From the NCBI RefSeq assembly GCF_030551255.1, contig NZ_CP130630.1, forward strand, positions 124,001 to 188,000: a stretch of DNA of 64,000 bases, written 5' to 3'. The notes under the pieces were generated by a model. The model ran no database searches. It saw only the letters and a program-made list of their open reading frames with translations, and was not told where the DNA came from. Positions 19,309 through 50,583 of this stretch are shown here, one piece after another; the stretch's first letter is position 1; each line of letters starts with the position of its first letter. This stretch comes from Streptomyces sp. NL15-2K (GTDB lineage: Bacteria; Actinomycetota; Actinomycetes; Streptomycetales; Streptomycetaceae). The translations under genes were made by a program, and so were the position numbers.

Positions 19309-20961
19309 TCAGTGGGCGGCCACGTTCGCCGTCCATGCGGCCACCGCGTCGTCCAGCACGGCCATCGGCAGGGCTCCGCCGCCCAGGACGAGGTCGTGAA
19401 AGGCTCGGACGTCGAAGGCCGCGCCCAGTTCCCGCTCGGCCCGGGCCCGAAGCCGTTGGATCTCCAGCCGCCCGATCATGTAGGACAGTGCCTGGCCGGG
19501 CATCTCGATGTAGCGGTCGGTTTCGGACTGAATCTCCACCTCTGCCATCACCGTGTTGGTCCGCAGATACTCCACCACCCGCCGGCGACTCCAACCGAAT
19601 GCGTGCACTCCGGTGTCCACCACCAGTCGGGCCGCCCGGGTCGAATCCATCGCGAGCATGCCGAGCCGCGCGATGTCGTCGGAATACAGGCCCATCTCTT
19701 CGGCCAGCCGCTCGGCGTACAACCCCCAGCCCTCGCTGTAGGAGTTGATCAACACCAAGCGCCGAAGCTGCGGCAGTTCCGCCAGCTCCTGAGCGACCGT
19801 GATCTGGAAGTGGTGTCCGGGCACCGCCTCGTGGAAGGTGAGGGCCTCCGACACGTACCGGTCCCGCTCGGTCGCGCGGTAGGTGTTGACGAGGTACGTG
19901 CCCGGTCGCGAGCCGTCCAGCGCCGCCGGGCTGTACCAGGCGGCGGCCGCATTGGGCGCGTCCGCCTCCGGGGTGGGCTCCACGACGCATCCGTGCGAGG
20001 GCATCAGGCCGAACCACTGCGGCGCCGCCTTCTCCGCGCGCTCCACCGCGGACCGCGCTGCCGCCACCAACTCCTGCGCACTGCCCCAGCGCAACGCGGT
20101 GTCCGTGCGCAACCGGTGGTGCACCTCGGCAACCGTACGCACCCCGAAGACTCTGGAGCCGATCGCCACGTACTCCTCGGCCAGCTGCTCGATCAGGTCG
20201 AGGCCGATCTGATGCAACTGCTCGGGGGTACGGTCGGTCGTCGTGTGCATCCGCGCGAGGGCGGCGTAACTGGCGTCCCCGTCCGGCAGCCAGCACAGGC
20301 CGGCCCGTTCCGGGGAACGGCCGTGCGGTGCGATGTCGGTGTCGAGTGCTTGCCGGTAGGCGGCGAACGCCGGCCGGACCACGTCCTCGATCAGACGATC
20401 CCGCTCGGCCACCCGAGAACCACTCAGTAGCGGCTGGCGTAACGGGTCACCCGCCGCGTCCGCGAGATAACCGTCCAGGCGGGTTATCGCATAGCGCGCC
20501 CGTTCCCCGACCGGGAGCCGGCCGGCGGCCACCCCGCTGCGGTGGCGGGCCGTGACCTTCGCGAGGTAGTCGGGAATCGTGGCCAGCCGCGTGAGGTAAC
20601 TGCGTTCCTGCTCCACGGTGATCGGTCGAGCGAGAGGCACCATGGTGAGGAGCCGGGCGATCGGTGAGACCAGGTAGTCGGCCATCGTGTGCTCGACCAG
20701 CCGGGCGTCGATCCGGTCCACCACTGCCGCGGCCTGCTGCGTCACCACCGCCTGGGTCGCCCAGTCCGGCTCCGCCGGATCGAGTTCACCCGCGGCGGCG
20801 GCGATGTCCGCCGCCCGGTCCCGCAATCGCGCCTCCGCCGCCTCGTCGTGGTCGCTCAGCAGATGGTCGTAACCCGGCAGGCCCTGGATGAACTCGTTGA
20901 GAGGATCCTCTTGGGCAATGACGTCGAGTAGCTCGTCGGCAAGCTTGGCCGTGGTGCTCAT
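19309..20961 (-). CDS. DUF885 family metallopeptidase-like protein
   Basis: A 550-residue protein from the ATG at 20961 (AGAGGG about eleven bases upstream), beginning MSTTAKLADELLDVIAQEDP. It shows the DUF885 hallmark LTFHEAVPGHHFQITVAQEL, a HExxH-like zinc site with a following GHH, then INSYSEGWGLYAERLAEEMG carrying the third ligand Glu, and IEMPGQALSYMIGRLEI near the end. It is a full-length member of the oligopeptidase-like DUF885 family; no signal peptide is seen, so it is cytoplasmic. It is 64 bases downstream of the aminotransferase in the cluster's minus-strand operon. It could process a peptide product or give self-protection (inference). Confidence 0.9.
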   Translation of the reverse strand: MSTTAKLADELLDVIAQEDPLNEFIQGLPGYDHLLSDHDEAAEARLRDRAADIAAAAGELDPAEPDWATQAVVTQQAAAVVDRIDARLVEHTMADYLVSPIARLLTMVPLARPITVEQERSYLTRLATIPDYLAKVTARHRSGVAAGRLPVGERARYAITRLDGYLADAAGDPLRQPLLSGSRVAERDRLIEDVVRPAFAAYRQALDTDIAPHGRSPERAGLCWLPDGDASYAALARMHTTTDRTPEQLHQIGLDLIEQLAEEYVAIGSRVFGVRTVAEVHHRLRTDTALRWGSAQELVAAARSAVERAEKAAPQWFGLMPSHGCVVEPTPEADAPNAAAAWYSPAALDGSRPGTYLVNTYRATERDRYVSEALTFHEAVPGHHFQITVAQELAELPQLRRLVLINSYSEGWGLYAERLAEEMGLYSDDIARLGMLAMDSTRAARLVVDTGVHAFGWSRRRVVEYLRTNTVMAEVEIQSETDRYIEMPGQALSYMIGRLEIQRLRARAERELGAAFDVRAFHDLVLGGGALPMAVLDDAVAAWTANVAAH

Positions 20962-21025
20962 GCAATCAATCCCTCTGTTCCAGTACTGCAACGGGCGAGG
21001 ACGAGATCCGGAGCGCTGGAAGACC

Positions 21026-22300
21026 TCATGTCTCCGAATATGTACACAGTTCTTCGAGCGCTTTGGCCAGCCGACGGACCCCTTCCGCTATCAGCCGGTC
21101 GTCAGGGCTCAAGCTGAGCCGGAAGCACCGGGTCCCGTGCGTGCGTAGGAACGGCGATTCCAGCGGGGCGACGAAGAAGTGGCGACCCGGGACGATGAAC
21201 ATCCCGTTCCGCTTGAGGAGTCGGTAGAGCTGGAGGTCGTCGAACCAGTCGTGGTCCACGTTCAGCCAACAGAACATGCCGCCGTCGCTGCTGTGCAGCC
21301 GCCAGTCGATGTGTTCCGGGAGGGCCTCGGCGAGCAGCTGCTCCGCCATCGTGCGTTTGGCCCTGTAGTAAGGCTTGATGTGCTGTGCCGTCAGTACATC
21401 GATGTGCCGTTCCGAGAGAGCTCGTGCGGCCGTGGCCTGCACCAGTTGTGGGGCGTGCAGCGTCGCATTCGCCATGAAGGACACCATGGGGTCGATGAGC
21501 GGCGCAGGACCTATCGCAAAAGCAATTCGCTCTCCGGGCAGACCCGCCTTCGACAGGGTGAACAGATTGATCACCCGGGAGTGGATGACAGGCGCAAGGT
21601 GGGTGTGCACGATGCCGGGGAAAGGCTGCCCGTACGCGTGGTCGATGACCAGGGGGGCGTCGTGGTACTCGGCCAGCTCGATCAGTACATCGAGTTCATC
21701 GGCATCGATGGTGCTGCCCGTGGGGTTGGCCGGGTTGGACAGCAGCATCATGCCCATGTTGTCGAGCCGGCGCAGTGCCTCCACATCGACGCGGTACCGG
21801 AAGGACCGCTCCCCGTTCCCGACGACTCGCGGTTCCACTCCGATGATTCCGCCCGAGTCCAGGCCGAGCCCCTGGTAGCCCGTGTAGTCGGGCAGGCGCG
21901 GCAGGACCAGGCGCCGCAGCCGGTCGTTGCCGTCCGGCCCGGTGAACAGCGTTGTCGCGATGAAGGCCAGCATCTGGCTTCCGGGTCCGACGACAACGTT
22001 CGCGGGCTCGATCGACCAGCCGTAGGCCGAATTGAAGTACTCGACGATGGCTTCGACCAGGACATGTGTGCCCCGCGAAGGGCCGTAGCAAGTGCTGGTC
22101 TCGACGAACTGCGCGTCCAGGGTCTCCCTGGTGAGCCGTTGCCATGCAGCGACGACCTCGGGGATGTACGAAGGATTCCCGGGGCTGAGATTGATCCATT
22201 CGTCTCCACCGGCGCTGTCCCCCGCTGCGGCGATATCCTCCATGATGCTCCGGATGCCTGACAGCCCTGATATCTGCTGGCCGCGACTCGATAGCTGCAC
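21026..22300 (-). CDS. PLP-dependent aminotransferase class I/II, AvtA-like
   Basis: The GTG at 22300 (leader agaaggttcaggca) is preferred; longer frames run into the carrier-protein gene. The 424-residue product shows the AvtA-type opening (SGLSGIRSIMEDIAAAG, WINLSPGNPSYIPEV), the cofactor region LLSNPANPTGSTIDADEL and LVIDHAYGQPFPG, and the PLP lysine in INLFTLSKAGLPGERIAFAI. Valine-pyruvate aminotransferase-type enzymes aminate branched 2-oxo acids. Directly after the stand-alone A and carrier genes and near an isopropylmalate synthase, it probably supplies the amino acid those enzymes use. Confidence 0.9.
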   Translation of the reverse strand: MQLSSRGQQISGLSGIRSIMEDIAAAGDSAGGDEWINLSPGNPSYIPEVVAAWQRLTRETLDAQFVETSTCYGPSRGTHVLVEAIVEYFNSAYGWSIEPANVVVGPGSQMLAFIATTLFTGPDGNDRLRRLVLPRLPDYTGYQGLGLDSGGIIGVEPRVVGNGERSFRYRVDVEALRRLDNMGMMLLSNPANPTGSTIDADELDVLIELAEYHDAPLVIDHAYGQPFPGIVHTHLAPVIHSRVINLFTLSKAGLPGERIAFAIGPAPLIDPMVSFMANATLHAPQLVQATAARALSERHIDVLTAQHIKPYYRAKRTMAEQLLAEALPEHIDWRLHSSDGGMFCWLNVDHDWFDDLQLYRLLKRNGMFIVPGRHFFVAPLESPFLRTHGTRCFRLSLSPDDRLIAEGVRRLAKALEELCTYSET

Positions 22301-22337
22301 TGCCTGAACCTTCTGTAGGAGTGAAACGTCCGGGCGA

Positions 22338-22583
22338 TCAGTCGGCTGACAGGGCTGCTCCGATGTGCTCGGAGATCTCCTTGACAGTGGACTTACGGAA
22401 GAGGAGATCCATCGGAACGGCCACACCGATCTCGGCGTGGATCTCGCGCTGAATTCTGGTCATGGTCAGTGAGTTACCGCCGAGGATGAAGAAATTGTCG
22501 TCGTCGGAAAAATCATCGCGATTGAGAGCGCGGCCCCATATTGCGTGGACCTTCGAAGTGATCACTGGTGATACTCTCCCCAT
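22338..22583 (-). CDS. Stand-alone peptidyl carrier protein
   Basis: An 81-residue carrier protein with the phosphopantetheine site FFILGGNSLTMTRIQREIH. An ATG at 22583 gives MGRVSPVITS. A GTG at 22565 preceded by GGGGAGAG is an equally good or better start and would give 75 residues. The helix I region VHAIWGRALNRDDFSDDD is a normal PCP opening. It lies 10 bases after the stand-alone A domain gene, so the pair makes a free-standing loading module that activates and carries one amino acid, perhaps for modification while bound. Confidence 0.92.
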   Translation of the reverse strand: MGRVSPVITSKVHAIWGRALNRDDFSDDDNFFILGGNSLTMTRIQREIHAEIGVAVPMDLLFRKSTVKEISEHIGAALSAD

Positions 22584-22593: not shown

Positions 22594-24153
22594 TCAGGCC
22601 GCGACCATGGCTGCCAGTGCCCGGCGGTCCGTCTTCCCGTTCGCGTTGAGCGGGAAGGCCTCCACAGCGACGAACTGCTGCGGGATCATGTTGTGAGGCA
22701 GCACACGCAGCAGGTCCGCGTACAGGCTCCGGGTGTCGAGAGGGCTCACCGCCGGCAGCACATAGGCCACCAGGCGCGGCTCCCCTGCCTGATCGGGCAG
22801 GGCGAGCACGACGACGTCCTCCACGAACTCGTGGCTGCGCACACCGTGCTCCACATCACCGAGATCCATCCGCATGCCGCGGATCTTCACCTGGGCATCG
22901 GCCCGGCCGACCACCACCAGTTCTCCGTCCGCGGTGACATAGCCCCGGTCACCGGTCCGGTAGATGCGCATCGGACCGTCCGCGACGGGCAGTTCGGTGA
23001 AGCGCCGGGTGTCGGCCGGCGAGGCGTTGAGGTACCCCGCGCTGACGCTCAGGCCCGAGATGCAGACCTCCCCCGTGGTGCCGTCCGGGACCTCTGACAG
23101 GTCTGAGTCCAGGATTCGGATTTCGGTGTTGTACACCGGGGGGCCCACAGGCGTCGCCGACCCGTCATAGCGGGGATAGTCGGTCAATGTGTGGGAGCTG
23201 GCCACGTCAGTGCATTCGGCCACCCCGTACTGGTGCAGCAGGACACAGGTGTTGTTCTCCCGGGTGGCCCATTCCTCGACCCGTGACACGGACAGTGGTT
23301 CACCGCCGATGAAGACATGGCCTACCTGGGTCAGAGCGCTGCCTGCCACGGCAAGCTCGTGCTCGATCAGCACATAGAGGGTGCTCGGCGCGCAGTGGAG
23401 TTGTCTGACGCGCTTCTCCTCGATGATCTGATAGGCCATGACCGGATCGAATGTGCGGCTGGGCAGCAGATGGATGGCGGCTCCGCAGAACAGCGGCGCC
23501 ATCAGACCGCGCTGACTTATGTCGAAGCCGAATGAGCTGACGGTCAGCCCGTCGGCACTGTCGTCCAGCCGGTACTCCAGGCGCAGCCATTCCAGCAGGT
23601 TGTACCAGCCCTCATGGCGAATGGCCGTCGCCTTGGGTGTTCCGGTCGAGCCCGAGGTGAATACCACGTAGCACAGGTCGTCGTTGCCGAGGTCGACGTT
23701 CGGGTTCGACGCGGGCTCCGCTGCGAGAGCGTCGGTCAGCTCCTCGACGAGTACCAGTTCACCGGTTGCCTGGCCGAGCAGGTCGCGGGTGTCCGCAGAG
23801 ACGATGTTCAGCTTGTTCTGATCGAGCTGGGACACCATCAGCCCCAACCGCTCAGCCGGGTAGGTGGGATCCAACGGCACGTAGGCCGCGCCGGCCTTCA
23901 TGATCCCGAGAATGCTGACGACAAGCTCCGGTGTCCGGTCCAGGCATACGCCGATGACCGAGCCTCGACCCGCACCACGCGAGATCAGGTGGTGGGCGAA
24001 GCGATTCGCCCGCTCGTTGAGTTCCGCGTAGGTGAGTTCTGAACCGCCACAGGTCAAAGCGGTCCGCTCCGGGGTCCGCCGCGCATGGGACTCGAATACC
24101 CGATGGACAAGCAGGTCTTCGGGAAGGGAGACGTGCCGGCCTTTGAGAACCAT
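22594..24153 (-). CDS. Stand-alone NRPS adenylation domain
   Basis: A 519-residue amino-acid-activating enzyme with all core motifs: A2 LGIMKAGAAYVPLDP, A3 YVVFTSGSTGTPKATAI, A4 FGFDISQRGLMAP, A5 LHQYGVAECTD, A7 YRTGDRGY, A8 GRADAQVKIRGMRMDLGDVE and A10 LNANGKTDRRAL. Asp235 and Lys517 equivalents are present, so the substrate has an alpha-amino and carboxyl group. My hand alignment to GrsA gives pocket residues D-I-R-H-F-G-Q-D-V-K, which I cannot match to a known amino acid; Arg at 239 and Asp at 330 suggest a polar substrate. It is paired with the carrier protein at 22338. Confidence 0.94.
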   Translation of the reverse strand: MVLKGRHVSLPEDLLVHRVFESHARRTPERTALTCGGSELTYAELNERANRFAHHLISRGAGRGSVIGVCLDRTPELVVSILGIMKAGAAYVPLDPTYPAERLGLMVSQLDQNKLNIVSADTRDLLGQATGELVLVEELTDALAAEPASNPNVDLGNDDLCYVVFTSGSTGTPKATAIRHEGWYNLLEWLRLEYRLDDSADGLTVSSFGFDISQRGLMAPLFCGAAIHLLPSRTFDPVMAYQIIEEKRVRQLHCAPSTLYVLIEHELAVAGSALTQVGHVFIGGEPLSVSRVEEWATRENNTCVLLHQYGVAECTDVASSHTLTDYPRYDGSATPVGPPVYNTEIRILDSDLSEVPDGTTGEVCISGLSVSAGYLNASPADTRRFTELPVADGPMRIYRTGDRGYVTADGELVVVGRADAQVKIRGMRMDLGDVEHGVRSHEFVEDVVVLALPDQAGEPRLVAYVLPAVSPLDTRSLYADLLRVLPHNMIPQQFVAVEAFPLNANGKTDRRALAAMVAA

Positions 24154-24187: not shown

Positions 24188-25981
24188 TCAGGAAGCCAGG
24201 GCTCGACAGACGGCGGAGGTCACGGCGTTGAGCCGGGCGGCGTCCCGATCAGCGGCAAGTCCGGCCCCGTACCAGGACTCCCCGTTCAGGCTGAGCAACG
24301 CATAGGCGGCGAAGCCGTTGCCGAGAGTTTCACCGACGGTGTGTTCCGTCAGTTCTAGGAGTTCACATATGAAACCGGCGTCCAGAAGTGCGTCCACATA
24401 GGCGGCAGCAGTGTCGGCTCCGGTTCCGCTCAGCCGTACCTCCGCACCGTTGCCCACAACCACGAGGGCCTCGACGTGCGTCGTGGATTCCTCGCGGATG
24501 ACGCGGAAGTCCTTGAGCAGAAGTGCCGACTGCGCGAAATCGAGGTACTCCTCGGTGAAGATCGCGCGGAGATCCCGGGACGTCAGCTCCGAGCCACGGT
24601 CGTCGGCGACACGTTGCACCCGCTTGGCGTACTCCACCCGGAGCCCGCGCGGCAGGTCCAGCCCATAAGCGCTCATGAGCAGGTGCGCCACACCACTCTT
24701 GCCGGACTGGCTGTTGACTCTGACGACTGATTCGTAGGCCCGCCCCACGTCCTTGGGGTCGAGGGGCAGGTAGGGGACGTCCCAGGGCACCTCGCTCCAA
24801 GCGATGTCGGCTGCGAGGGCTTGGCGTTCGATCGCGGCGAGGCCTTTTGCGATGGCGTCCTGGTGAGTTCCCGAGAACGCGGTATAGACGAGGTCGCCGG
24901 CATAGGGGTGACGGGGAGAGGTGGGGAGCCGATTGGCGAACTCGACCGTGCGGCGGATCTCGTCGATGTCGGAGAAGTCCAGCTGAGGGTCGATGCCCTG
25001 GCTGAAGAGGTTCAGTGCGAGAGTCGCCAGGCATACGTTGCCGGTACGTTCGCCGTTGCCGAAGAGGGTGCCTTCGATCCGGTCCGCCCCGGCCATCACG
25101 GCCAGCTCGGCGGAGGCCACGGCCGTGCCGCGGTCGTTGTGCGGATGCACGGAAAGGATGACGGCGTCCCGACGGTCGAGATTGCGGTGCATCCATTCGA
25201 TCTGGTCCGCATAGACGTTGGGGGAGTCGGTCTCCACCGTGCTCGGAAGGTTCAGCGTGACCGGGCGGTCGCAGCTCGCGTCCCAGAGCGCCGTGACGGT
25301 GTTCGACACCTGGAGAACGAAATCGGGCTCCGTCACGTTGAACGTCTCCGGCGAGTACTCGAACCGCAGGTCCGCACCCTTGGCGGAACTCGCCTTCCGG
25401 GCGATGTGCTCAGCCGACCGGACGGCCATCGCCTGCACCTCGTCAGTGCTCATACCGAACACGACGTCGCGCCACAGACAGGCGGTCGCATGGCACAGAT
25501 GCACCATCGCCCGGTCGGCGCCCTCGATGGCCTGGAAGGTCCGGTCGATCAGCTCGAGCCGCGCCGGGGTGAAGACGGAGATGGTGACGTCGTCGGGGAT
25601 CTCGTCGTTCTCGATCAGCATGCGTACGAAAGAGAAGTCCGCGTCGCTCGCGGAGGGGTACCCGACCTCGATGTCCTTGAAGCCCATGCGCACGAGCAGT
25701 TCGAACATGCGTCGCTTGCGCTCGACATCCATCGGGCTGCTCAGCGCCTGGTTTCCGTCCCGAAGGTCGACCGAAGCCCACAGTGGAGCCTTGACCAGGG
25801 ACTGCGTCGGCCAGCTGCGGTCGGTAGGCTCGTACGGAAGCCGGGGTCCGGACCTCGCGTAGCGTCGAAAGGGCATGGAGGATCCGCGCTGCGGGTTCCA
25901 CCACGGCTGATGCGAACCGCGCGGGCCCGCAGGCGTCTTGATTCCGGACAATGCGAACCCTCTCTCTGATGCCGCGGTCAT
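24188..25981 (-). CDS. 2-isopropylmalate synthase, full length (leuA paralogue)
   Basis: A 597-residue protein with the ATG at 25981 (GGGGGAG eight bases upstream) in a four-base ATGA overlap with the MFS gene. It has the LeuA catalytic barrel: WASVDLRDGNQALSSPMDVE, MGFKDIEVGYPSASDADFSF, VILSVHPHNDRGTAVASAEL (metal-binding HxH), GTLFGNGERTGN and NSQSGKSGVAHLL. A C-terminal regulatory domain extends to RLSGTGADTAAAYVDALLDA. This matches the long actinobacterial LeuA, which condenses 2-oxoisovalerate with acetyl-CoA and is feedback-inhibited by leucine. LeuCD and LeuB are not here. It may boost leucine supply or elongate another 2-oxo acid. Confidence 0.93.
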   Translation of the reverse strand: MTAASERGFALSGIKTPAGPRGSHQPWWNPQRGSSMPFRRYARSGPRLPYEPTDRSWPTQSLVKAPLWASVDLRDGNQALSSPMDVERKRRMFELLVRMGFKDIEVGYPSASDADFSFVRMLIENDEIPDDVTISVFTPARLELIDRTFQAIEGADRAMVHLCHATACLWRDVVFGMSTDEVQAMAVRSAEHIARKASSAKGADLRFEYSPETFNVTEPDFVLQVSNTVTALWDASCDRPVTLNLPSTVETDSPNVYADQIEWMHRNLDRRDAVILSVHPHNDRGTAVASAELAVMAGADRIEGTLFGNGERTGNVCLATLALNLFSQGIDPQLDFSDIDEIRRTVEFANRLPTSPRHPYAGDLVYTAFSGTHQDAIAKGLAAIERQALAADIAWSEVPWDVPYLPLDPKDVGRAYESVVRVNSQSGKSGVAHLLMSAYGLDLPRGLRVEYAKRVQRVADDRGSELTSRDLRAIFTEEYLDFAQSALLLKDFRVIREESTTHVEALVVVGNGAEVRLSGTGADTAAAYVDALLDAGFICELLELTEHTVGETLGNGFAAYALLSLNGESWYGAGLAADRDAARLNAVTSAVCRALAS

Positions 25982-27207
25982 GTCGTTTCTCCCCCAGTCG
26001 TGAGATGCGGTTGCTCGGGTGCCACAGCCCGGCCGGCTCGGTCGATTCCGCGATCGGAGCGCAGCCCCGGCATCAGGACCAGCGTGATCATGATTGCGAG
26101 AGCGGCGTTCACGGCTATCCCCGTCGAAGGCGAGGAGAACTCGGCCACCGCGCCCGCGAGGGCGGCACCGAGGCCCTGCATGGTGCGCATGCCGGAGGTG
26201 TAGAGGCCCAGCGCCTGCCCGCTCAGCTCCCCGGGGGTCAGCGACAACAGGCGTTCCTGAAGGACCCAGTTGGCCGAATATCCGACGGTGGCGAACATGA
26301 CGGCCAGCAACGCCAAGGGCAGTGCCGGATGCAGAGCGAAGATCAGGTAAGGAGCGGCGAGCAGCAGCAACAACGGCACACCCAGGCGCTCCCTGTACCG
26401 CTGAGGCAGGAGCCGACCCGTCAGGATGTCGCCGACCAGCATGCCGAACGCGCCGGAGGCGAAGAGAAGTCCCGCGTGCCTCGGTGCATAGGCGACGTAG
26501 AGGGACTCGCAACCGACGACCAGTCCGCACGGAAGCCAGAAGGAGAGGTAGACGAAGCGGCGTGACTTGGAGGACCACAGCCGTACGTTGTTCCGCCAGG
26601 TCTCGGTGGCTGAGGCCCGCCCGAGGGCTCGCGGCGGGCGGCGGCTGAGGCCGGCCAGGGCGACGAACGAGGCGGCAAGGTAGAGGGCGGCACCGATGAG
26701 CAGCGTGTCACGCGGTGACAAGGCCGTCGTGAGCACGCCGCCGACCGCGTACCCGCAGATCTGCATGAGGCCCATGGCCATGCTGAGCACCGAGCTGCCC
26801 AGCACGTATCCGTCGCTCGGGAGGATCTCGTTCAGCAGTCCGAAGCTCACGCCGCCGCCCACCGCCGCGATCACCCCCTGGCCCAGGAGGATGGCGAAGA
26901 CAGCCCACACGGGCAGACCGGGGATGGCCTGGACGGCCGTACTCAGGCCGAAGATCAGGCTCATGCCGGTCAGCGCGGCACGGGGCGGCAGACGATCGGC
27001 TCCCGACAGCAGCGTGGTCGCGCCGATCACCTGGGCGAGAGAGGGGCCGAACATGGCGAGTGTGGACAGCAGTGGTGAGCCGGTGGCCGTGTAGATCAGC
27101 GTGCTGAGGGCCAGTCCGCTGACCGTCTGGGCGGCTATCTGCCCGGAGTACGCGAAGAAGAGCGGTGTGAACTCCGGCGTGCGGACGAGTTCGCGATAGG
27201 TGCGCAT
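25978..27207 (-). CDS. MFS exporter of the biosynthetic cluster
   Basis: About 409 residues from the ATG at 27207 (MRTYRELVRTPEFTPLFFAY); an in-frame GTG at 27243 is a possible earlier start. Roughly twelve hydrophobic segments and the MFS loop LSGADRLPPRAALTG are visible. The family resembles antibiotic-cluster efflux pumps. Its last codons overlap the isopropylmalate synthase start (ATGA), implying translational coupling. A 240-base gap separates it from the upstream 2OG oxygenase gene and could hold an extra promoter, though none was recognised. Probable role: export of the NRPS product. Confidence 0.87.
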   Translation of the reverse strand: MRTYRELVRTPEFTPLFFAYSGQIAAQTVSGLALSTLIYTATGSPLLSTLAMFGPSLAQVIGATTLLSGADRLPPRAALTGMSLIFGLSTAVQAIPGLPVWAVFAILLGQGVIAAVGGGVSFGLLNEILPSDGYVLGSSVLSMAMGLMQICGYAVGGVLTTALSPRDTLLIGAALYLAASFVALAGLSRRPPRALGRASATETWRNNVRLWSSKSRRFVYLSFWLPCGLVVGCESLYVAYAPRHAGLLFASGAFGMLVGDILTGRLLPQRYRERLGVPLLLLLAAPYLIFALHPALPLALLAVMFATVGYSANWVLQERLLSLTPGELSGQALGLYTSGMRTMQGLGAALAGAVAEFSSPSTGIAVNAALAIMITLVLMPGLRSDRGIDRAGRAVAPEQPHLTTGGETT

Positions 27208-27446
27208 GTCCGCCGTCTCACAGACCGCGCCGCGGCGCGTCACAGCGAGTCCGAAGGCCCCGGTGCGCGGACCGGCCGCGTACCCGGGCGGGCGCGGAGG
27301 TGTCCTCGCCGAGCCCGGACCGGGCTCCTTGACCCACCCCCGACCCGCATAACCCGAATCTGCTCAGATTGACCGAAAGCATCTCAGAACTCCCTCTCGC
27401 AGGATCTCGTACGCGACACGATCTGTGCCGACGGCGACGCCCTGGC

Positions 27447-36935: not shown

Positions 36936-36967
36936 CGGTCTGTGCCGAGAATCCCGGAATCTTCTGA

Positions 36968-38268: not shown

Positions 38269-38280
38269 CCCTCGCCACAT

Positions 38281-38315
38281 GGGCGCTCCGCTTCCCCGAC
38301 GGGAGCGGAGCGCCC
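38281..38315. terminator. Strong hairpin between the short peptide gene and the SARP gene
   Basis: GGGCGCTCCGCT (38281-38292) and AGCGGAGCGCCC (38304-38315) form a perfect 12-bp stem with an 11-base loop. It sits between two convergent genes and fits a bidirectional terminator. Confidence 0.7.
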
Positions 38316-38321
38316 TTGCGG

Positions 38322-42887: not shown

Positions 42888-44246
42888 ATGCACGCAACGC
42901 CCAAGACGTCCACGACGACCCACACGACCGACACGACCGACACACCCAGGAAGCAGGCCTTCGTCCTGCTCGAACTCCTCAACCACATGGTCCTGATCGC
43001 CCGCGAGGCCAAGAACCGCGGCTTCCACGTGATCGCCCTCAACCACGACCCCCTGCTCACCGACGGCCCGTTCGCCGTACCGGAGGGCGTGGTCGACGAG
43101 GTGGTCCCGGTCGCCTCCTGGGCGGACGCCGAAGCGGTCGACGGCATCGTCGACGACGTACTCACCCGGTACGACGTGATCGGCACCTACGCCGCCTTCG
43201 AGGGGGCCCTGCGCCACGAGGCCCGGCTCAGGGAACGCTCCGGCCTGCCCACCAGCGGCGCAACGACGGTGACCCGTGCCCTGGACAAGGCCCTGGTACG
43301 CGGCACCCTCTACCGCGAGGGTCTCACCACCCTCCGATCCACGACCCTGACCGAGGCGCTGACCTGGGACGACTGGCGCTTCGACCGCGCGGCCGTCCTC
43401 AAGCCGGCGAACGGCACCGGAAGCGCCCTTTGCTTCACCGTCGCCTCTCTCGGCGAACTCCGCGCGGCGACCGCGGAGATCGCCGCCGTCAAGGTGACGA
43501 ACGCGCTGATGAAGCAGTACATCCTGGCGCACGGCGAGTTCGTCCTCGAGGAGCGGGCCGAGGGCGAGCTGCTGTCGGTGGAGTCCCTGGTCCATCGGGG
43601 CGAGGTGCACGTCGTCGGGCTCACCGGACGCTATGTCTCCGCCCTCGACCCGGTCGTGGAACTGGGCGCGTGCTTCCCGTACCCGCATCCGCGGGGCGAG
43701 GAGATCGTGGCCCGGGCAGTGGAGTTCCACCGCGCTCTGGGCATCACGCACGGCCCGACCCACCTCGAGGTCATGGTGCCCGACGAGGGCCCCATCGAGC
43801 TGATCGACTTCAATCTGCGCACCATCGGCGCCGGGATGTCCGTCTGCATCGGCAACGCCTTCGGCATCGAGTACGCCGTCCCGCTCACCGACCTGGCCTG
43901 CGGGCGGTGCCCGGACCTGTCCTTCCTGGCCCGCGCTCCGCGCCACTCGGCCGACCTGTTGCTCCTCCCGCCGCCGGGCGCGACCGTGATGACGGACCTG
44001 GCCTTCCCCGAGGGCACCGAGTACGGCCGCGTGACCAAGCCCTTCGGTCAGCCCCTGAGCGGGCGCGCCGACCAGCTCGACGTGGTCGCCATGGTCGTCG
44101 TCAACGCGGACACGCCCGAGGAACTGCACCGACGGGCGCTGGAGGCCCGCAAGACCACCGTCTTCAACGGCGAACCCCTCGGCGACAACCCCAACAACCA
44201 GGTGGTGTCGCCGCGTTCCTACCAGTTCACCGCAACTCCCGCGTGA
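42888..44246 (+). CDS. ATP-grasp ligase (peptide/amide-forming), first of three
   Basis: A 452-residue protein from the ATG at 42888. A Thr/His-rich start (TPKTSTTTHTTDTTDTPRKQ) leads into an ATP-grasp layout: N-terminal Rossmann-like domain (GFHVIALNHDPLLTDGPFAV), TRALDKALVRGTLYREGLTT, the nucleotide-binding lysine in RAAVLKPANGTGSALCFTV, LEERAEGELLSVESLVHRGE, and the metal-binding end HLEVMVPDEGPIELIDFNLR. This is the pattern of carboxylate-amine ligases of the BL00235/CARBOAT-like group found in peptide antibiotic clusters. It lies 32 bases after the MFS gene. Substrates unknown. Confidence 0.9.
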   Translation: MHATPKTSTTTHTTDTTDTPRKQAFVLLELLNHMVLIAREAKNRGFHVIALNHDPLLTDGPFAVPEGVVDEVVPVASWADAEAVDGIVDDVLTRYDVIGTYAAFEGALRHEARLRERSGLPTSGATTVTRALDKALVRGTLYREGLTTLRSTTLTEALTWDDWRFDRAAVLKPANGTGSALCFTVASLGELRAATAEIAAVKVTNALMKQYILAHGEFVLEERAEGELLSVESLVHRGEVHVVGLTGRYVSALDPVVELGACFPYPHPRGEEIVARAVEFHRALGITHGPTHLEVMVPDEGPIELIDFNLRTIGAGMSVCIGNAFGIEYAVPLTDLACGRCPDLSFLARAPRHSADLLLLPPPGATVMTDLAFPEGTEYGRVTKPFGQPLSGRADQLDVVAMVVVNADTPEELHRRALEARKTTVFNGEPLGDNPNNQVVSPRSYQFTATPA

Positions 44247-44269: not shown

Positions 44270-45058
44270 ATGACCGTCACCACCGAAACCGACTCCGGCC
44301 CGGAGCACGGCGAGCGCACTCATCCCGAGGGCCTCTTCGAGCAGCACTTCGCCGCCCGCTTCACCGCGGACGCCCTCACCACCCTGCGGGAGCGATTCCG
44401 CGACGAGCACATCGTGCCGCTGCGCGGCTTCTGCCCGCCCGAGTTGCTCCGCCCGCTGCAGGAGGAGGCGTTCGGGATCATGGACGAACACGGGGTGGCC
44501 CGTAAGTTCAGCTTCGACATCACCGACGGAACTCCCCGTCAGATGACCACCGTCGGCCAGCCGGTCATCAAGGACCACGGCCCGCTCATCCACGCCACCT
44601 ACTTCTCCCCGGCGGTCAAGGAGCTGCTGGGCCAGGTGGTCGGCGAGGAGGTGTTCACCTGCCCGTACGCCGGTGAGCACTACGTGATCAGCCGACTCGG
44701 CAAGAGCGGCGACACACACGGCTGGCACTGGGACGACTACACGTACGGCTTCATCCTGGTACTGCAGGCCCCCGACTACCGTGACGGCGGCTTCGTGCAG
44801 GCCGTGCCGCACACCTCGTGGGACAAGCAGAACCCGGACGTACACGGTGCGTTGCTCAAGAGCCAGGTCAGGTCGTACGCCTTCGAGGCCGGCGACGCGT
44901 ACGTGGTCAAGACCGACACCACCATGCACCGGGTCTACCCGATCCGCGGCGAGACGACCCGCACGATCGTGAACATGACCTGGGCGAACGGCGCGGACCT
45001 CACCCGCGAGATCACCCACGAGACCAACGACGTCCTGTTCGGGGGTGTCGGTGAGTAA
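44270..45058 (+). CDS. 2OG-Fe(II) oxygenase
   Basis: A 262-residue protein with ATG at 44270 and AAGGAG eleven bases before it. The metal site is in THGWHWDDYTYGFILVLQAP (HxD), and the distal His and 2OG Arg in KTDTTMHRVYPIRGETTRTI. VQAVPHTSWDKQNPDV and FEAGDAYVVKTD surround the core. The family is PhyH/2OG-like but I cannot name a close member. It sits between an ATP-grasp ligase and a desaturase-like gene and overlaps the latter by eight bases, so it probably oxidises an amino-acid or dipeptide intermediate. Confidence 0.9.
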   Translation: MTVTTETDSGPEHGERTHPEGLFEQHFAARFTADALTTLRERFRDEHIVPLRGFCPPELLRPLQEEAFGIMDEHGVARKFSFDITDGTPRQMTTVGQPVIKDHGPLIHATYFSPAVKELLGQVVGEEVFTCPYAGEHYVISRLGKSGDTHGWHWDDYTYGFILVLQAPDYRDGGFVQAVPHTSWDKQNPDVHGALLKSQVRSYAFEAGDAYVVKTDTTMHRVYPIRGETTRTIVNMTWANGADLTREITHETNDVLFGGVGE

Positions 45059-46277
45059 CCCGCAGAGCACCGAAGACGACCTGCTGATCGCGGGCGAGCC
45101 CCGGGAGTCCATGCGGATCCTCCCCGCCTTCGTCCAGCCGTATCTCACCTGGGTGACCGGCGTCCCGCTCAAGGGCGGCAAGCAGCTGATCCCGTGGAGC
45201 CCCGCCAAGGCCGGTCTGCTGGGCATCGTGCAGATGGCCGTCGGTATCGCGCTGGGCGCGTACGCGCTGCACCCCCTCACCGCGTGGTCGCCCTTCCTCC
45301 TGGTCCTGGGCTGGCTGCTGACCAGCGGCGGCATGCGCCGTCTCGACGTCGTGGTCGTCCATCAGACGCTGCACCGCATGTTCACCAAGAAGGCATGGAG
45401 CAACCGGCTGGTCGGCGAGCTCATCACGACGGTGTTCTGGCGCACCCCGTACGACGAGAACCGCAAGGAACACCTGACCCACCACGCCTTCCCCTGCTCG
45501 ATGAAGGACGGGGACACCCGCTACCTGCTGTCGACCGGGATGCGCCCGGGGATGACCCGGACGGAGTTCCGCCGCTACCTGTGGGCGACGCTGTTCTCGC
45601 CGCGCCACCACGCCCGCTTCCTCTTCGGCCGGGTGAAGTCCAACTACGTCGGGGTGCGGCCGCGTTACCGGCTGGCGATGTCCTTGGCCTATCTCACCGC
45701 CACGGTCGCCTTCGTCGGGCTCACCGGCTGGTGGGTGGAGTGGCTGGTGCTGTGGCTGGTTCCGGCCTCGGTGTTCTTCCAGTCGTGCACCTACTTGTAC
45801 ACGATGACCGAACACCGCTGGTGGCTGTTCGGCAACCAGGAGCGGCTGCCCCGGGACAAGCGAGACCTGCTCACCTTCGGCCGCTTCTGCGGCGAGGCCG
45901 TGCCGGACGCCTCCCTCAGCGGGGGACGCAGGGCGGCCGCGTGGGCGACGTGGACGTTCCGGATGCTGGTGGTGCACTCCTCGTACCGGATGTTCGTGCT
46001 CGTCGGCGACACCGTCCAGCACGATCTGCACCACGTCATGCCGGCCTGCGACTGGGCCAACTCGCCGTGGATCAGGGCCGACGACCAGGGCAACCGGCCC
46101 GAGCGCTACAGCGAGGTCTGGGGCTCGCTCGCCGACCATCTGCAGGCCGCGGGCCAGGTCGAGGGCGACCGGGCGGGGCTGCCCGAGGACGTCGCGCCCA
46201 CCCCGTGGACGGAATCCGTACCCGTCGTCACGGGGGCCGTCACCCCCGACGGCCGCACTGTGAAGGGGCAGTTGTGA
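45051..46277 (+). CDS. Membrane diiron enzyme, fatty-acid-desaturase-like
   Basis: About 408 residues. The GTG at 45051 follows GGGGG and overlaps the previous stop (GTGAGTAA); a GTG six bases earlier is also possible. Three histidine boxes bind the diiron centre: HQTLH in DVVVVHQTLHRMF, HLTHH in NRKEHLTHHAFPC, and HDLHH in GDTVQHDLHHVMPACDW. Hydrophobic segments (AGLLGIVQMAVGIALGAYAL, FLLVLGWLLTS, LVLWLVPASVF) fit a membrane desaturase/hydroxylase fold. In a peptide cluster such an enzyme could hydroxylate, desaturate or N-oxygenate an amino-acid-derived intermediate. It shares a GTGA overlap with the next ligase gene. Confidence 0.9.
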   Translation: MSNPQSTEDDLLIAGEPRESMRILPAFVQPYLTWVTGVPLKGGKQLIPWSPAKAGLLGIVQMAVGIALGAYALHPLTAWSPFLLVLGWLLTSGGMRRLDVVVVHQTLHRMFTKKAWSNRLVGELITTVFWRTPYDENRKEHLTHHAFPCSMKDGDTRYLLSTGMRPGMTRTEFRRYLWATLFSPRHHARFLFGRVKSNYVGVRPRYRLAMSLAYLTATVAFVGLTGWWVEWLVLWLVPASVFFQSCTYLYTMTEHRWWLFGNQERLPRDKRDLLTFGRFCGEAVPDASLSGGRRAAAWATWTFRMLVVHSSYRMFVLVGDTVQHDLHHVMPACDWANSPWIRADDQGNRPERYSEVWGSLADHLQAAGQVEGDRAGLPEDVAPTPWTESVPVVTGAVTPDGRTVKGQL

Positions 46278-47632
46278 CCCACGTACTGGTGATCGACGGC
46301 ACGGGACGCGGGCACGCGATCTGTGACCTGTTCGTCCGCACGAATCCCTCGGTGACCGTGTACTACGGTCCCGGCTGCGACGCCCTGACGGCCGACCGCA
46401 TCGTCTCCGTGCCCCGGATCCGGCTCGACGACCCGTCCACCGCGCTGGACTTCCTCGCGGAGCACCCGGTGGAGTTCGTCTTCGTCTCCCATGTCGACGC
46501 GCTGTGCGCCGGGTACACCGACGTGCTCTCCGCGCACGGCCACCAGGTGATCGGCCCGTCGGCGGCCGCTGCCCGGCTGGAGGCCAGCAAGGAGCGAGGT
46601 AAACGTTTCTGTACGGACCACGGGCTGCCCACCGCCGAGTACGCCGCGTTCACCGACGCGCCAGCGGCCAAGGCCTACGTCCGGCAGCGGCCGTACGCCT
46701 GCGTCGTCAAGACCGACGGGCTCACCCCCGACGGGGACGGCTCCGTGGTGTGCGACACGGCCGCCGAGGCGGAGACGGCGGTGGACGCGTTCGCCTCCGC
46801 GCAGGGCGCGGACCTCCAACTCGTCGTCGAAGAGCGCCTCTACGGCCGCGAGATCTCCGTCTTCGCTCTGCTCGACGGCGCCGACTACCTCCTCTTCCCG
46901 ACCGCGCTGGACTTCAAGCGGACCCTGGAGGGCGACGCCGGCAAGAACTGCGACGGCATGGGCTCCCTCGCCCCGCATCCGCAGTCCTCGCCGGCCCTGC
47001 TGGAGCAGATCCGGCGGGACCTGGTCGAGCCGTTCCTGCGCGGGATCGCCGCGGAAGGGCTGTCGTACACGGGATTCGTCTACATCGGGGCGATGATCAC
47101 CGACTCGGGTCTGAAGGTCATCGAGATCAACACCCGGTTCGGCGACTCCGAGGCGGAGGCCGTGCTGCCGGGCGTGCACAACGACTTCACGGAGCTGTGC
47201 CGGGCGGTGCTGCGCCGGGAGCTGGACCGCAGCCTGCTCGTCACGGACGGTCTGGCACGGTGCAGCGTCGCCCTGACCCAGGGCTGCCTCGACCCGGCCG
47301 ACCCGACGGCCACACCGGGCTGGCCGTTCGGCGCCTTCGCCACCGGCCAGCCGGTGCTGGGCCTCGCCCAGTTCCCGCGCGACGCGACCCGCCTCTTCTA
47401 CGCCAACCTGCGCGCCGACTCGGACGGCCGCCCGGTCACCAGCGGCGGCCGGGTCCTGCACGTGGTCGGCGTCGGCCGCACCATCACCGAGGCGCGGGCC
47501 CAGGCGTACCGGCGCATCGGCGGCATCTCGTTCCCCGGCATGCGCCACCGCACCGACATCGGAGCAGCCTTCGAGGCCGGCTCCCCGTTCCCCACCAGCG
47601 CCGCTCCGGCCGTCGCGGAAACCCGGAGGTAA
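46274..47632 (+). CDS. PurD-like ATP-grasp ligase
   Basis: A 452-residue protein with a GTG start at 46274 in a four-base GTGA overlap with the desaturase-like gene. It follows the glycinamide ribonucleotide synthetase plan: an N-terminal domain (VLVIDGTGRGHAICDLF, VEFVFVSHVDAL), LEASKERGKRFCTDHGLPT, lysine in ACVVKTDGLTPDGDGSVV, QLVVEERLYGREISVFALLD, GMGSLAPHP, GFVYIGAMITDSGLKVIEIN with TRFGDSEAEAVLP, and the PurD-type C-terminal domain. It is not expected to be the housekeeping purD given its location. I infer ligation of an amine to an amino-acid carboxylate through an acyl phosphate. Confidence 0.9.
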   Translation: MTHVLVIDGTGRGHAICDLFVRTNPSVTVYYGPGCDALTADRIVSVPRIRLDDPSTALDFLAEHPVEFVFVSHVDALCAGYTDVLSAHGHQVIGPSAAAARLEASKERGKRFCTDHGLPTAEYAAFTDAPAAKAYVRQRPYACVVKTDGLTPDGDGSVVCDTAAEAETAVDAFASAQGADLQLVVEERLYGREISVFALLDGADYLLFPTALDFKRTLEGDAGKNCDGMGSLAPHPQSSPALLEQIRRDLVEPFLRGIAAEGLSYTGFVYIGAMITDSGLKVIEINTRFGDSEAEAVLPGVHNDFTELCRAVLRRELDRSLLVTDGLARCSVALTQGCLDPADPTATPGWPFGAFATGQPVLGLAQFPRDATRLFYANLRADSDGRPVTSGGRVLHVVGVGRTITEARAQAYRRIGGISFPGMRHRTDIGAAFEAGSPFPTSAAPAVAETRR

Positions 47633-47638
47633 TCCCTC

Positions 47639-48937
47639 ATGACCACGCTCACCCTCGACACCGCCACGGTCGTCGAGACCCACGAATCAGCCGTACGCTC
47701 CTACTCGCGCGCGTTCCCCGCGGTGTTCACCAGCGCCAAGGGCGACCTGCTCGTCGGGCAGGACGGCGCCCGGTACATCGACTTCCTCTCCGGTGCCGGA
47801 ACCCTCAACTACGGCCACAACCCGGACTCGATCAAAGACGACCTGATCGAATACCTGCGCGCCGACGGCCTCGTCCACGGCCTCGACCTGTCGACCTCGG
47901 CCAAGGCAGGATTCCTGCAGGCCTTGCGGACGTACGTCCTCGAACCCCGTGGCCTCGACTACAAGGTGCAGTTCACCAGCCCGTCCGGCACCAACGCCGT
48001 CGAGGCCGCGCTGAAGGTAGCCCGGCTGGCCACCGGCCGCACCAACGTCATCGCCTTCGGCGGCGGCTTCCACGGCGTCAGCACCGGCTCCCTCGCGGCC
48101 ACCGGCGGCGGCTTCTACCGGGAGGGCCTGGAGGCCACGCTCCCCCAGGTCACGCACATCCCCTACCCGGACTCCCCGCTGGGCGAGTTCGAGAGCCTTG
48201 ATCTACTGCGCCGGCTCCTCGACGACCCCAGCTCCGGCGTCGACAAGCCGGCCGCCGTCCTGCTGGAGACGGTGCAGGGCGAGGGTGGCGTGTGGGTGGC
48301 GCCGGTCCCCTTCCTCCAGGAACTGCGAGAGCTGTGCGACCGGCACGGCATCCTGCTGATCGTCGACGACATCCAGGCCGGCTGCGGCCGCACCGGCACC
48401 TTCTTCTCCTTCGAGCGGGCCGGCATCACGCCCGACCTGATCACCCTCTCCAAGTCGATCAGCGGATACGGCCTGCCGATGGCGATCGTGTTGATCAAAC
48501 CGGAGTACGACATCTGGCGCCCCGGCCAGCACAACGGAACGTTCCGCGGACACCAACTCGCCTTCGTCGCGGCGAGTGCCGCACTGCGGCACTACTGGTC
48601 CGACGACACCTTCGTCCGGCAGATCCGCACCAAGGCCGAACTCGTCACCGACTTCCTCCAGCGCCGTATCGCCCAGCCCTACGGCGCCCAAGTCCGCGGC
48701 GTCGGCCTCATGCAGGCCGTGGACCTCAGCACGGTCTCCGGCGTCGAGGCGGCCGAGGTCTCCCGGCGCTGCTTCGACAAGGGCCTGATCATCGAGACCT
48801 GCGGGCGCCGGGACGAAGTGCTCAAGCTCCTGCCACCGCTCACCGTCAGCCAGGTCAACCTCTCGGCCGGCCTCAACATGCTGGCCGACGCCCTGACGGA
48901 GCTGACCGCCCTGCCCGTGAGCGAGGTCGCCGCATGA
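47639..48937 (+). CDS. Class III aminotransferase, EctB-like (diaminobutyrate-2-oxoglutarate type)
   Basis: A 432-residue protein with GGAGG twelve bases before the ATG at 47639. It begins with the EctB-like ESAVRSYSRAFPAVFTSAKG. The PLP-binding features are FTSPSGTNAVEAALKVARLA, GGFHGVSTGSLAATGG, LLIVDDIQAGCGRTGTFFSF and the PLP lysine in ITLSKSISGYGLPMAIVLIK. EctB-type enzymes turn aspartate 4-semialdehyde into L-2,4-diaminobutyrate using glutamate. EctA and EctC are absent, so ectoine synthesis is not the purpose here. It probably supplies diaminobutyrate (or a related omega-amino acid) to the ligases on either side. Confidence 0.92.
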   Translation: MTTLTLDTATVVETHESAVRSYSRAFPAVFTSAKGDLLVGQDGARYIDFLSGAGTLNYGHNPDSIKDDLIEYLRADGLVHGLDLSTSAKAGFLQALRTYVLEPRGLDYKVQFTSPSGTNAVEAALKVARLATGRTNVIAFGGGFHGVSTGSLAATGGGFYREGLEATLPQVTHIPYPDSPLGEFESLDLLRRLLDDPSSGVDKPAAVLLETVQGEGGVWVAPVPFLQELRELCDRHGILLIVDDIQAGCGRTGTFFSFERAGITPDLITLSKSISGYGLPMAIVLIKPEYDIWRPGQHNGTFRGHQLAFVAASAALRHYWSDDTFVRQIRTKAELVTDFLQRRIAQPYGAQVRGVGLMQAVDLSTVSGVEAAEVSRRCFDKGLIIETCGRRDEVLKLLPPLTVSQVNLSAGLNMLADALTELTALPVSEVAA

Positions 48938-50583
48938 AGACCGCGGTCGTCATCTCGACCCGAGGGTTCGGCGTGTTCCGGCACGACCTCCTCATGAACC
49001 CGGACGAGGTGCGTCTCATCGGTGTCTTCACCGACCGCGACGCGGCCAACCTCACCGCCGGGCAGCGCACCTGGTTCGAGCAGATCCATGTCGTTCCGTG
49101 CGGGCTGTCCGACCCGACGCCCATGCTGTACTCGCTCGTCGACGCGGACGCGACACGGGAGGTGGTCGCCGGCCTCCTGTCGGACGCCGAGCCGACCGAC
49201 CTCACCGTCCACTGCTACGACGAGCAGAACATGATGGTCGCTGCCGAGCTGCGCACGCGCTTCGGCCTCAAGGGCCCGGGTGTCGCCGACATCCTGCCGT
49301 TCCGCGACAAGTGCCTGATGAAGCAGCGCCTGCTGGACGCCGGCGTACGCGTCCCGCGCTTCGGCCACTTCGACGCCGAGCAGCACGCTGCGGAGCCGTC
49401 GGCCTCCTTCAAGGCCATCATCGCCGAGGTCGGCCTCCCGTTCATCCTCAAGCCGACCGACGCGGCCGCTTCCGAGGGCGTCCTCAAGATCACAGAATGG
49501 GACGAGTACGCGGCCCTGCCCACCGACTTCGGCCGGGCATACGAGTACGAGGAGTTCGTCGAAGGGACGATGTACAGCGTCAACATCGTCTCGGACGCGG
49601 GCCGCACGGTCTTCGGCGGAGTGACCGAATACCTGGTCAACTCGCTCGAGGTCCCCGGCGGCAAGGTCAACGCCGACATCAACCTGATCGACTCCGACCC
49701 CCGTGTCGCCCGCATGGTCGCCTTCGCCGACCGGGCCCTGGACGCGCTGGGCCGCCCCGACGGCGGCTCCCACCTGGAGCTCTTCCACACCCCGGACGAC
49801 GAACTCGTCTTCCTGGAGGTCGGCGCCCGCTTCAAGGGCATGGCGGGCCTCGCCGCCATGCAGCGCAACTACGGCATCGCCTTCGTCAACCTCGCCTTCG
49901 AGATCGAGTCCGGCATCAAGAGCCGTCCCTACGACGGCGAACAGATCTACTGCTTCGACGGGGTGGTCCCCAAGAAGCAGGGCGTCGTCAAGGAGTTGAT
50001 CGACCCCGAGCTGGAGAGCGACGTCGAGATGACCTGGAAGGTCGAGGTCGGCGAAGAGATCGAGAGCAGCAACTCGCTGCTCGCCAACGGAGGTACGTTC
50101 CTGGTCTCCAACAAGGACTACGAGGCCGCCTACCGCGACTTCCGCCGCCTCGCCGACTACCGGCCGATCCGGTACGCCGAGCCGAGCCGGGTCCTCGGAG
50201 TCACGCCGGCCGCCCCGGAGAACGCCTACACGTACTTCCAGGAACTCAGGCTCGCCTGCGAGACCGACCCGTACGACGTTCACCACGACCTGGAGGAGGG
50301 CGCACGCGACGTCGTGGTCCTCGACGTACGGCGCGCCGCCGCCTACGCCTGCGAGCACGTCCGCGGCGCCCACAGCCTCCCCCACGAGGACATCTCCGCC
50401 GCGACGGTGAAGGGACTCGACCCCGAGCCCCTCTACGTCACCTACGGCTGGGGCCCCGCCTGCAACGGCGGTACCCGCGCCGCCGCCAAGCTGTCGGCAC
50501 TCGGCTTCAAAGTAAAAGAGATGATCGGCGGATTCGAGTACTGGAAACAGGGCGGCCACCCCACCGAGCAGGGCGAACCCTAG
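48934..50583 (+). CDS. ATP-grasp ligase fused to a C-terminal rhodanese domain
   Basis: A 549-residue protein overlapping the aminotransferase stop by four bases (ATGA). Residues 1 to about 410 are an ATP-grasp ligase: VISTRGFGVFRHDLLMNPDE, LPFRDKCLMKQRLLDAGVRV, lysine in LPFILKPTDAAASEGVLKI, EYEEFVEGTMYSVNIVSD, and HLELFHTPDDELVFLEVGAR at the metal-binding end. From about residue 440 a rhodanese domain follows: RDVVVLDVRRAAAYACEHVR, GAHSLPHEDIS and the loop ACNGGTRAAAKLSALGF, where CNGGTR holds the catalytic Cys position. The fusion suggests sulfur handling, or a rhodanese fold used as a partner domain, coupled to amide ligation. Confidence 0.9.
   Translation: MKTAVVISTRGFGVFRHDLLMNPDEVRLIGVFTDRDAANLTAGQRTWFEQIHVVPCGLSDPTPMLYSLVDADATREVVAGLLSDAEPTDLTVHCYDEQNMMVAAELRTRFGLKGPGVADILPFRDKCLMKQRLLDAGVRVPRFGHFDAEQHAAEPSASFKAIIAEVGLPFILKPTDAAASEGVLKITEWDEYAALPTDFGRAYEYEEFVEGTMYSVNIVSDAGRTVFGGVTEYLVNSLEVPGGKVNADINLIDSDPRVARMVAFADRALDALGRPDGGSHLELFHTPDDELVFLEVGARFKGMAGLAAMQRNYGIAFVNLAFEIESGIKSRPYDGEQIYCFDGVVPKKQGVVKELIDPELESDVEMTWKVEVGEEIESSNSLLANGGTFLVSNKDYEAAYRDFRRLADYRPIRYAEPSRVLGVTPAAPENAYTYFQELRLACETDPYDVHHDLEEGARDVVVLDVRRAAAYACEHVRGAHSLPHEDISAATVKGLDPEPLYVTYGWGPACNGGTRAAAKLSALGFKVKEMIGGFEYWKQGGHPTEQGEP

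Follow-up and report, generated by a model that had tools for sequence, protein, structure and literature searches.

Adjacent biosynthetic clusters may share one activator. The cephamycin and clavulanate clusters, for example, are both controlled by the Streptomyces antibiotic regulatory protein (SARP) CcaR, according to the parts consulted of two sources (PMC6627628; PMC10972967). In the excerpts consulted, SARP promoters are described as carrying repeats at 11-bp spacing, with the 3' repeat 8 bp from the -10 element (PMC10936776); the repeat layout is likewise described in PMC10972967. The locus analyzed here lies in a 64,000-nucleotide stretch of Streptomyces sp. NL15-2K (the window; bases 124,001-188,000 of contig C1, in a genome of 12.4 Mb and 3 contigs). 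It has a nonribosomal peptide synthetase (NRPS) half, which is a minus-strand operon running from DUF885 to MbtH plus a divergent PhyH gene, and an ATP-grasp half, which is a plus-strand operon. The gene for a large AfsR-like SARP is located between them (Table 1). The locus is probably a supercluster, in which two separate peptide pathways would be placed under one SARP activator.

Alignment of the SARP-MFS intergenic regions of five relatives and the window revealed a conserved array before the ATP-grasp operon, and a second copy was found before PhyH. In both window sites a -10-like box (GAAGACT or GAAGATT) follows 8 bp past the third heptamer, which fits the published geometry of SARP promoters; the gap from operator to start codon is 83 bases for the ATP-grasp MFS gene and 94 bases for PhyH. 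A matrix built only from the sites in L015, L044, L045, L046 and L047 gave 44.6 bits for the window's ATP-grasp site and 36.8 bits for the PhyH site. With the training sites and the former window site left out, the next-best real position scored 14.5 among 2,195,778 positions, which comprise both strands of the window and of the loci fetched by then, some of them overlapping. The best simulated score was 18.1 in 40.4 million positions under a second-order model of the window, and in 20,000 permutations of the matrix columns the PhyH site reached at most 5.3. A pattern shared by the two window sites had no third match with up to 3 mismatches in the 12.4-Mb genome (reversed control 0); a looser heptamer pattern recovered the same two sites in the window, with 0.04 expected. 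The first-pass annotation of this DNA had spoken of one regulated locus, and the recurrence of the array before PhyH agrees with it. No operator site was scored in the NRPS loci of the genomes G072 and ISL-66 (L070). As judged from gene neighbourhoods, the SARP gene is part of the ATP-grasp cluster: its orthologue adjoins the ATP-grasp operon in L015/L016 and L044-L047, and none turned up in the NRPS locus of either G072 or ISL-66.

The distribution of the two halves was followed with one marker each, ATP-grasp ligase 2 and the small 2-oxoglutarate (2OG) oxygenase of the NRPS half. Counting the index genome (NL15-2K) each time, ligase 2 occurs in six genomes of a family sample of 297 and in ten of a genus sample of 393, and the NRPS marker in 2/297 family genomes, 5/392 genus genomes and 4/265 genomes of an overlapping draw; two of the genus-sample NRPS matches (G313 and G428) are only 47-48% identical. 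Eight genomes have the NRPS half or parts of it, and two of them contain ligase 2; conversely, the NRPS marker is present in two of the 24 ligase 2 genomes. Both times these are the index genome and ISL-66 (G337), so that 22 of the 23 non-index ligase 2 genomes are without the NRPS marker. A HalD-containing operon occurs in 18 of these 23 (the exceptions are G277, G149, G125 and the genomes of L058 and L063), and the NRPS marker is missing in 17 of the 18. The two halves are separable; they are adjacent clusters able to exist apart.

Individual genomes agree with these counts. The plus-strand operon is complete in the SID8374 genome (G244), accompanied by SARP and GPP34, at 53-88% identity; no NRPS-half gene scored above 70 bits there within 38 kb. 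The ATP-grasp operon is also present in Wenjunlia, with neither SARP nor NRPS genes found within 37 kb. A scan of the species genome collection yielded 21 named loci, most reaching about 10 kb to each side and a few shorter at contig ends. The HalD-like, desaturase-like, PurD-like and ligase 2 genes stand together in 17 of them (all except L058, L059, L061 and L063); among these 17, L045 showed no ligase 1 and L062 no EctB. None of the 21 contains core NRPS-half genes; outside the core, relatives of DUF885 occur in L051 (82%) and in L052 (27%), and L056 has a weak match to AKR (32%).

The opposite case is G072, which has no ligase 2 marker and carries the NRPS half at 64-86% identity (AKR, DUF885, PCP, stand-alone A, LeuA, MFS, 2OG oxygenase, C-A-T-TE, C-A-T, MbtH and PhyH). 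Neither this NRPS locus nor that of ISL-66 showed an AvtA-like aminotransferase. The AKR gene lies beside DUF885 in G072 and beyond PhyH in the window; this difference in order might reflect a circular permutation or, equally, the move of a single gene. The codes of the three adenylation (A) domains were read via motif anchors and gave no amino acid assignment; one mis-anchored C-A-T position, hand-read in the window only, was left out of the comparison. In the positions read, the codes of the window, G072 and ISL-66 agree, so that the presence of the ATP-grasp neighbour probably makes little difference to the NRPS product. The stand-alone A code, which we take to be DIRHFGQDV(K), is identical in four other loci.

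The first-pass annotation had proposed that both halves build one peptide with thiotemplate and ATP-grasp bonds, and had named homologous operons occurring apart as evidence against this idea; such operons are what was found. Nor are both halves kept as one block in relatives, since they are together only in the index genome, ISL-66 and apparently Streptomyces cyaneofuscatus. A single hybrid product, in which the NRPS tripeptide and an ATP-grasp unit are joined, is therefore unlikely. The shared operator-like site, the co-occurrence of the halves in further genomes and a DUF885 gene beside the ATP-grasp operon of ISL-66 (82% identical to that of the window) would be in keeping with it; against them stand the HalD-containing operons without the NRPS marker, the NRPS half of G072 without the ATP-grasp marker, and the common A-domain codes, by which the NRPS half looks unchanged by its neighbour. 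Moreover, each half has its own exporter, which supports two pathways, and the thioesterase would release the NRPS product. Another explanation is that unrelated, separately regulated clusters adjoin by chance near a contig end. The separability of the halves and the location of the window (124-188 kb along a contig about 12.3 Mb long) are compatible with this; however, the shared operator copy is far beyond chance and the pairing recurs, so that pure chance adjacency was judged unlikely after the operator scan.

In ISL-66 the halves lie on two short contigs: L070/L075 contains the NRPS half followed by genes resembling ordinary chromosomal ones, and L051 the ATP-grasp operon with its DUF885 gene. 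In S. cyaneofuscatus, a C-A-T relative (81%, P0002) and a ligase 2 relative (82%, P0125) both carry a longest contig of 302,773 bases in their database entries, apparently the same contig. The pairing thus recurs in ISL-66 and apparently in S. cyaneofuscatus, so that the association may not be a one-time accident. Under independence (prevalence 9/392), the rough chance of the pairing is 0.045 for 1/2, 0.0016 for 2/3 with S. cyaneofuscatus and 0.010 for 2/7 if the four genomes named below are counted as lacking it; the denominators are small and the last two figures mix sampling routes.

Several points weigh against two pathways under one activator. The statistics are thin, as one of only two close non-index NRPS genomes in the genus sample has the ATP-grasp marker (the P of about 0.045 above). 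The halves are also paired in ISL-66, where no SARP site scored, and the pairing therefore does not need this regulator; the DUF885 gene of ISL-66 is a weak link between the halves. S. cyaneofuscatus apparently has both halves on one contig of 302,773 bases, where they may or may not be close together. A close C-A-T is also present in NPDC003032, NPDC059629, Actinoplanes capillaceus and Kitasatospora kazusensis, none of which is named among the ligase 2 matches (the best 120 of 153, many nameless); this weighs against regular pairing but does not decide the matter. The PhyH site was first spotted by eye and tested afterwards, two of the five sites behind the matrix are nearly identical, and the genome-wide pattern was derived from the two window sites themselves. 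The operator copy faces PhyH, and its action on the divergent MbtH operon as well, at a distance of about 300 bases, is assumed. The sequence itself shows the gene content, the separability of the halves, the operator-like site common to both and the iron site of hydroxylase type, whereas SARP binding, the products and a joint function of the halves are inferred.

The supercluster might work as follows. The SARP would most likely bind the array before the ATP-grasp operon and the predicted second copy in the PhyH/MbtH intergenic region, so that the NRPS half would carry an operator copy in this genome and not in the two relatives examined. In the ATP-grasp half, lysine, ornithine or diaminobutyrate would be hydroxylated by the BesD-like hydroxylase, and the membrane di-iron enzyme might oxidize the hydroxylated amino acid again. 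EctB could supply or consume a terminal amine, and the three ATP-grasp ligases would couple the building blocks to a small peptide, for which the adjacent MFS protein would be the exporter. In the NRPS half, LeuA and the aminotransferase may provide a residue of leucine type, which the stand-alone A enzyme and PCP would load and C-A-T and C-A-T-TE would extend to a tripeptide; the two 2OG oxygenases and the reductase would tailor it, and its own MFS protein would export it. A second LeuA copy is found in the genome (C1:3695720, 50% identity), and the cluster copy is therefore probably dedicated to the pathway.

Among solved structures, the HalD-like enzyme matches lysine halogenases and also the lysine hydroxylase 7jsd. 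Its Asp155 (H-W-D) stands where BesD has Gly, and HWD is found in 20 of the 20 loci with the motif (the window and 19 others; 24 were examined), of which L017 and L049 are the same strain. Because of Asp instead of Gly/Ala at this iron-ligand position, the halogenase reading was rejected, and the enzyme is predicted to be a hydroxylase. It keeps the positions aligned to BesD R77, H137, E123 and D143; D239 and W241 lie outside the alignment. These four residues of BesD contact lysine, according to the part consulted of the source (PMC13244439). The three His boxes of the membrane enzyme are kept in the loci having it (L052 was read separately). Single open frames join ligase 1 and HalD in L049, L055 and Archangium violaceum, and PurD and EctB in L050 and L052; such fused frames point to direct cooperation within each enzyme pair.

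How the two halves came together can be proposed tentatively, at somewhat less than even confidence. A mobile NRPS pathway might have inserted next to the ATP-grasp pathway and gained a copy of the SARP operator found there, giving a co-produced and perhaps synergistic pair; the same pathways would be paired without the SARP site in ISL-66, and apparently also in S. cyaneofuscatus, and the ATP-grasp member would found an uncharacterized family reaching from actinomycetes to a myxobacterium. Near-identical direct repeats of 21-23 bases (19231-19253 and 35709-35729) flank the core NRPS operon and may be a trace of rearrangement on arrival. Each holds the box AAACCCCAGGTC, of which exact copies start at 19242, 35718 and 41385 in the window (0.2 expected at up to 1 mismatch). 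By eye, degenerate frames at 18860-19200, which resemble the start of a transposase, presumably of IS630 type, and the end of a membrane protein, adjoin the first box. Superclusters under one activator include cooperating pairs, such as a beta-lactam with a beta-lactamase inhibitor. Because both pathways are available for comparison as neighbours and alone, and with the operator present or absent, it is testable whether adjacency or the operator came first. The ATP-grasp operon itself appears to represent an uncharacterized peptide family with a conserved oxygenase pair.

Further variation was seen around the ATP-grasp operon. Where the SARP was not found, a gene classed by eye as a LuxR-type regulator lies near the operon in L048, L051, L052 and L064. 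A motif shared by the ISL-66 pair, perhaps one for the LuxR-type gene, was also considered; a word comparison gave only GC-rich words with weak NRPS-side matches. The loci with MFS and ligase 2 without the HalD module (L058, L059, L061 and L063) share a common class II (D/K/N) tRNA-synthetase-like family, with a tRNA-editing domain within the L059 gene and a separate editing gene in L061. Another class II tRNA-synthetase-like gene occurs with the HalD module in L051 and, by grouping, in L060. Self-resistance and amide ligation are possible roles for these genes. In the 20 kb read, the locus L019 (G277) has ligases 1 and 2 and PurD, with no match to HalD, the desaturase or EctB; its further genes encode an alanine racemase, a separate rhodanese, a NUDIX protein, an extra ATP-grasp ligase, an ornithine cyclodeaminase and a DegT aminotransferase. 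Glutamate-mutase-like genes (B12-binding and MutE) adjoin the operon in Streptomyces termitum (L060, 19090-21236). Archangium violaceum has relatives of ligase 2 and of ligase 1, the latter fused to HalD (P0194, P0293, P0330 set), and an Oxalobacteraceae strain has a ligase 1 relative, by which the family extends beyond actinomycetes.

Parts of the NRPS half also occur elsewhere. LeuA, the stand-alone A and the AvtA-like gene lie within a few to about 30 kb in L032 (G248), L036/L037 (G026) and L038/L039 (G196); G248 and G026 also have the PCP, and the remainder of the NRPS half is not present in these loci. The A code in L032 and L039 is that of the window. Distant NRPS relatives are found in L071-L074 (G428 and G313), with 47-48% identity for the 2OG oxygenase and 44% for C-A-T-TE.

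Genes were assigned by profile scans (Pfam and NCBIfam) over 19309-50583 (Table 1). All genes listed by the first-pass annotation were recovered, including the divergent PhyH and the intervening SARP. The EctB-like aminotransferase scored above its curated cut-off; the profile score of the AvtA-like gene falls below the cut-off. The AKR, the plus-strand MFS, the rhodanese fusion on ligase 2 and GPP34 are additional to that list. RNA families above the gathering threshold and tRNAs were absent from the window, and a repeat search across the locus returned mostly weak, coding-type repeats. A partial match (residues 33-121 only) to MbnB/TglH/ChrH, enzymes modifying precursors of ribosomally synthesized and post-translationally modified peptides (RiPPs), was seen at 55471-56484. 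Plasmid carriage of the locus was rejected in view of distant plasmid matches: the best for C-A-T, from a record of Streptomyces sp. NBC_01237, was 43.7% identical and all 229 records were below 60%, and the sole ligase 2 record was from Vibrio (34.9%).

Table 1. Features of the locus, in window coordinates (C, condensation; A, adenylation; T, thiolation; TE, thioesterase)
Feature	Position	Strand	Evidence or remark
DUF885 protein, last gene of NRPS operon	19309..20991	-	PF05960 478 bits; 84% identical copy in G072 NRPS locus
AvtA-like aminotransferase	21026..22321	-	NF006967 390.4 bits, below curated cut-off 402
Stand-alone peptidyl carrier protein (PCP)	22338..22583	-	PF00550 E 2e-15
Stand-alone adenylation enzyme	22594..24153	-	TIGR01733 above cut-off
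LeuA-type 2-isopropylmalate synthase	24188..25951	-	NF002991 738 bits
MFS exporter, NRPS half	25978..27243	-	PF07690
Small 2OG-Fe(II) oxygenase	27447..28037	-	PF13640
NRPS C-A-T-TE	28034..32077	-	Profile scan
NRPS C-A-T	32031..35204	-	Profile scan; closest relatives 72-86% identical
MbtH-like protein, 59 aa	35250..35429	-	PF03621 65.6 bits
Box AAACCCCAGGTC, PhyH/MbtH intergenic region	35718..35729	+	Exact match
Putative SARP-type operator copy, NRPS half: three heptamers at 11-bp spacing, 8 bp, GAAGATT; faces PhyH	35737..35780	+	Matrix and pattern scans
PhyH-type 2OG oxygenase	35874..36773	+	PF05721
Strong hairpin between PhyH and AKR, likely terminator	36881..36939		z -5.2
Aldo/keto reductase (AKR)	36968..37963	-	PF00248; put in NRPS half (adjoins DUF885 in G072)
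Strong hairpin at SARP gene 3' end, likely terminator	38275..38321		z -6.1
Large SARP/AfsR-like regulator: DNA-binding, BTAD, NB-ARC, TPR	38322..41510	-	Profile scans
Box AAACCCCAGGTC, SARP-MFS intergenic region	41385..41396	+	Exact match
Putative SARP-type operator, ATP-grasp operon: three heptamers at 11-bp spacing, 8 bp, GAAGACT	41440..41483	+	Alignment and matrix scan
MFS exporter, ATP-grasp half	41566..42855	+	PF07690
ATP-grasp ligase 1 (L-amino-acid-ligase type)	42888..44246	+	PF13535; nearest PDB 3vot
HalD/BesD-family 2OG enzyme, H153-D155-H220, predicted hydroxylase	44270..45058	+	PF23169 325.1 bits, cut-off 26
Membrane di-iron (FA_desaturase-like) oxygenase	45045..46277	+	PF00487; His boxes
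PurD-like ATP-grasp ligase	46274..47632	+	PF01071/PF02843/PF02844; TIGR00877 315.4 vs 288
EctB-like diaminobutyrate aminotransferase	47639..48937	+	TIGR02407 573.8 vs cut-off 552.2 bits
ATP-grasp ligase 2 fused to rhodanese domain	48934..50583	+	PF02655, PF00581; loop with Cys
GPP34-domain gene, 3' of ATP-grasp operon	50593..51165	+	PF05719; adjoins operon in several relatives

In a literature search, mostly judged without full texts, no published cluster with this gene set was recognized. Unlike the ectoine pathway, the locus has a gene meeting the EctB profile with no EctA or EctC match among the scanned neighbouring genes. Among ligases of solved structure, those closest to ATP-grasp ligases 1 and 2 are the L-amino acid ligases BL00235 (3vot), 4wd3 and BacD, at a distance of E 1.3e-15 for ligase 1 and 1.3e-9 for ligase 2; unlike them, ligase 2 carries a rhodanese domain. 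The set of HalD, di-iron, EctB and PurD enzymes does not appear in the parts consulted of the descriptions of the beta-lactone peptides cystargolide and belactosin; three ATP-grasp enzymes are found here, and further ones in related loci. The HalD-like enzyme belongs to the same family as the BesD/HalD lysine halogenases and the hydroxylase Hydrox (PDB 6nie, 7u6h, 7u6i and 7jsd) and keeps the lysine-contact residues, whereas it has Asp (H-W-D) where the halogenases have Gly. For cephamycin and clavulanate, the binding, mutant effects and products are known, whereas the present locus is known from its sequence alone; moreover, its regulator is a large AfsR-like SARP, whereas CcaR is ranked among the small SARPs in the part consulted of the source (PMC10972967). 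The arrangement is nevertheless much the same, as far as the cephamycin/clavulanate sources were consulted: two adjacent clusters with different precursors, the SARP gene in one of them, and heptamer repeats at both promoters. Of the marks of a supercluster of the CcaR type, the separable clusters, the SARP gene in one of them and the repeats at both promoter regions (for the NRPS half, facing PhyH) are found in this locus.

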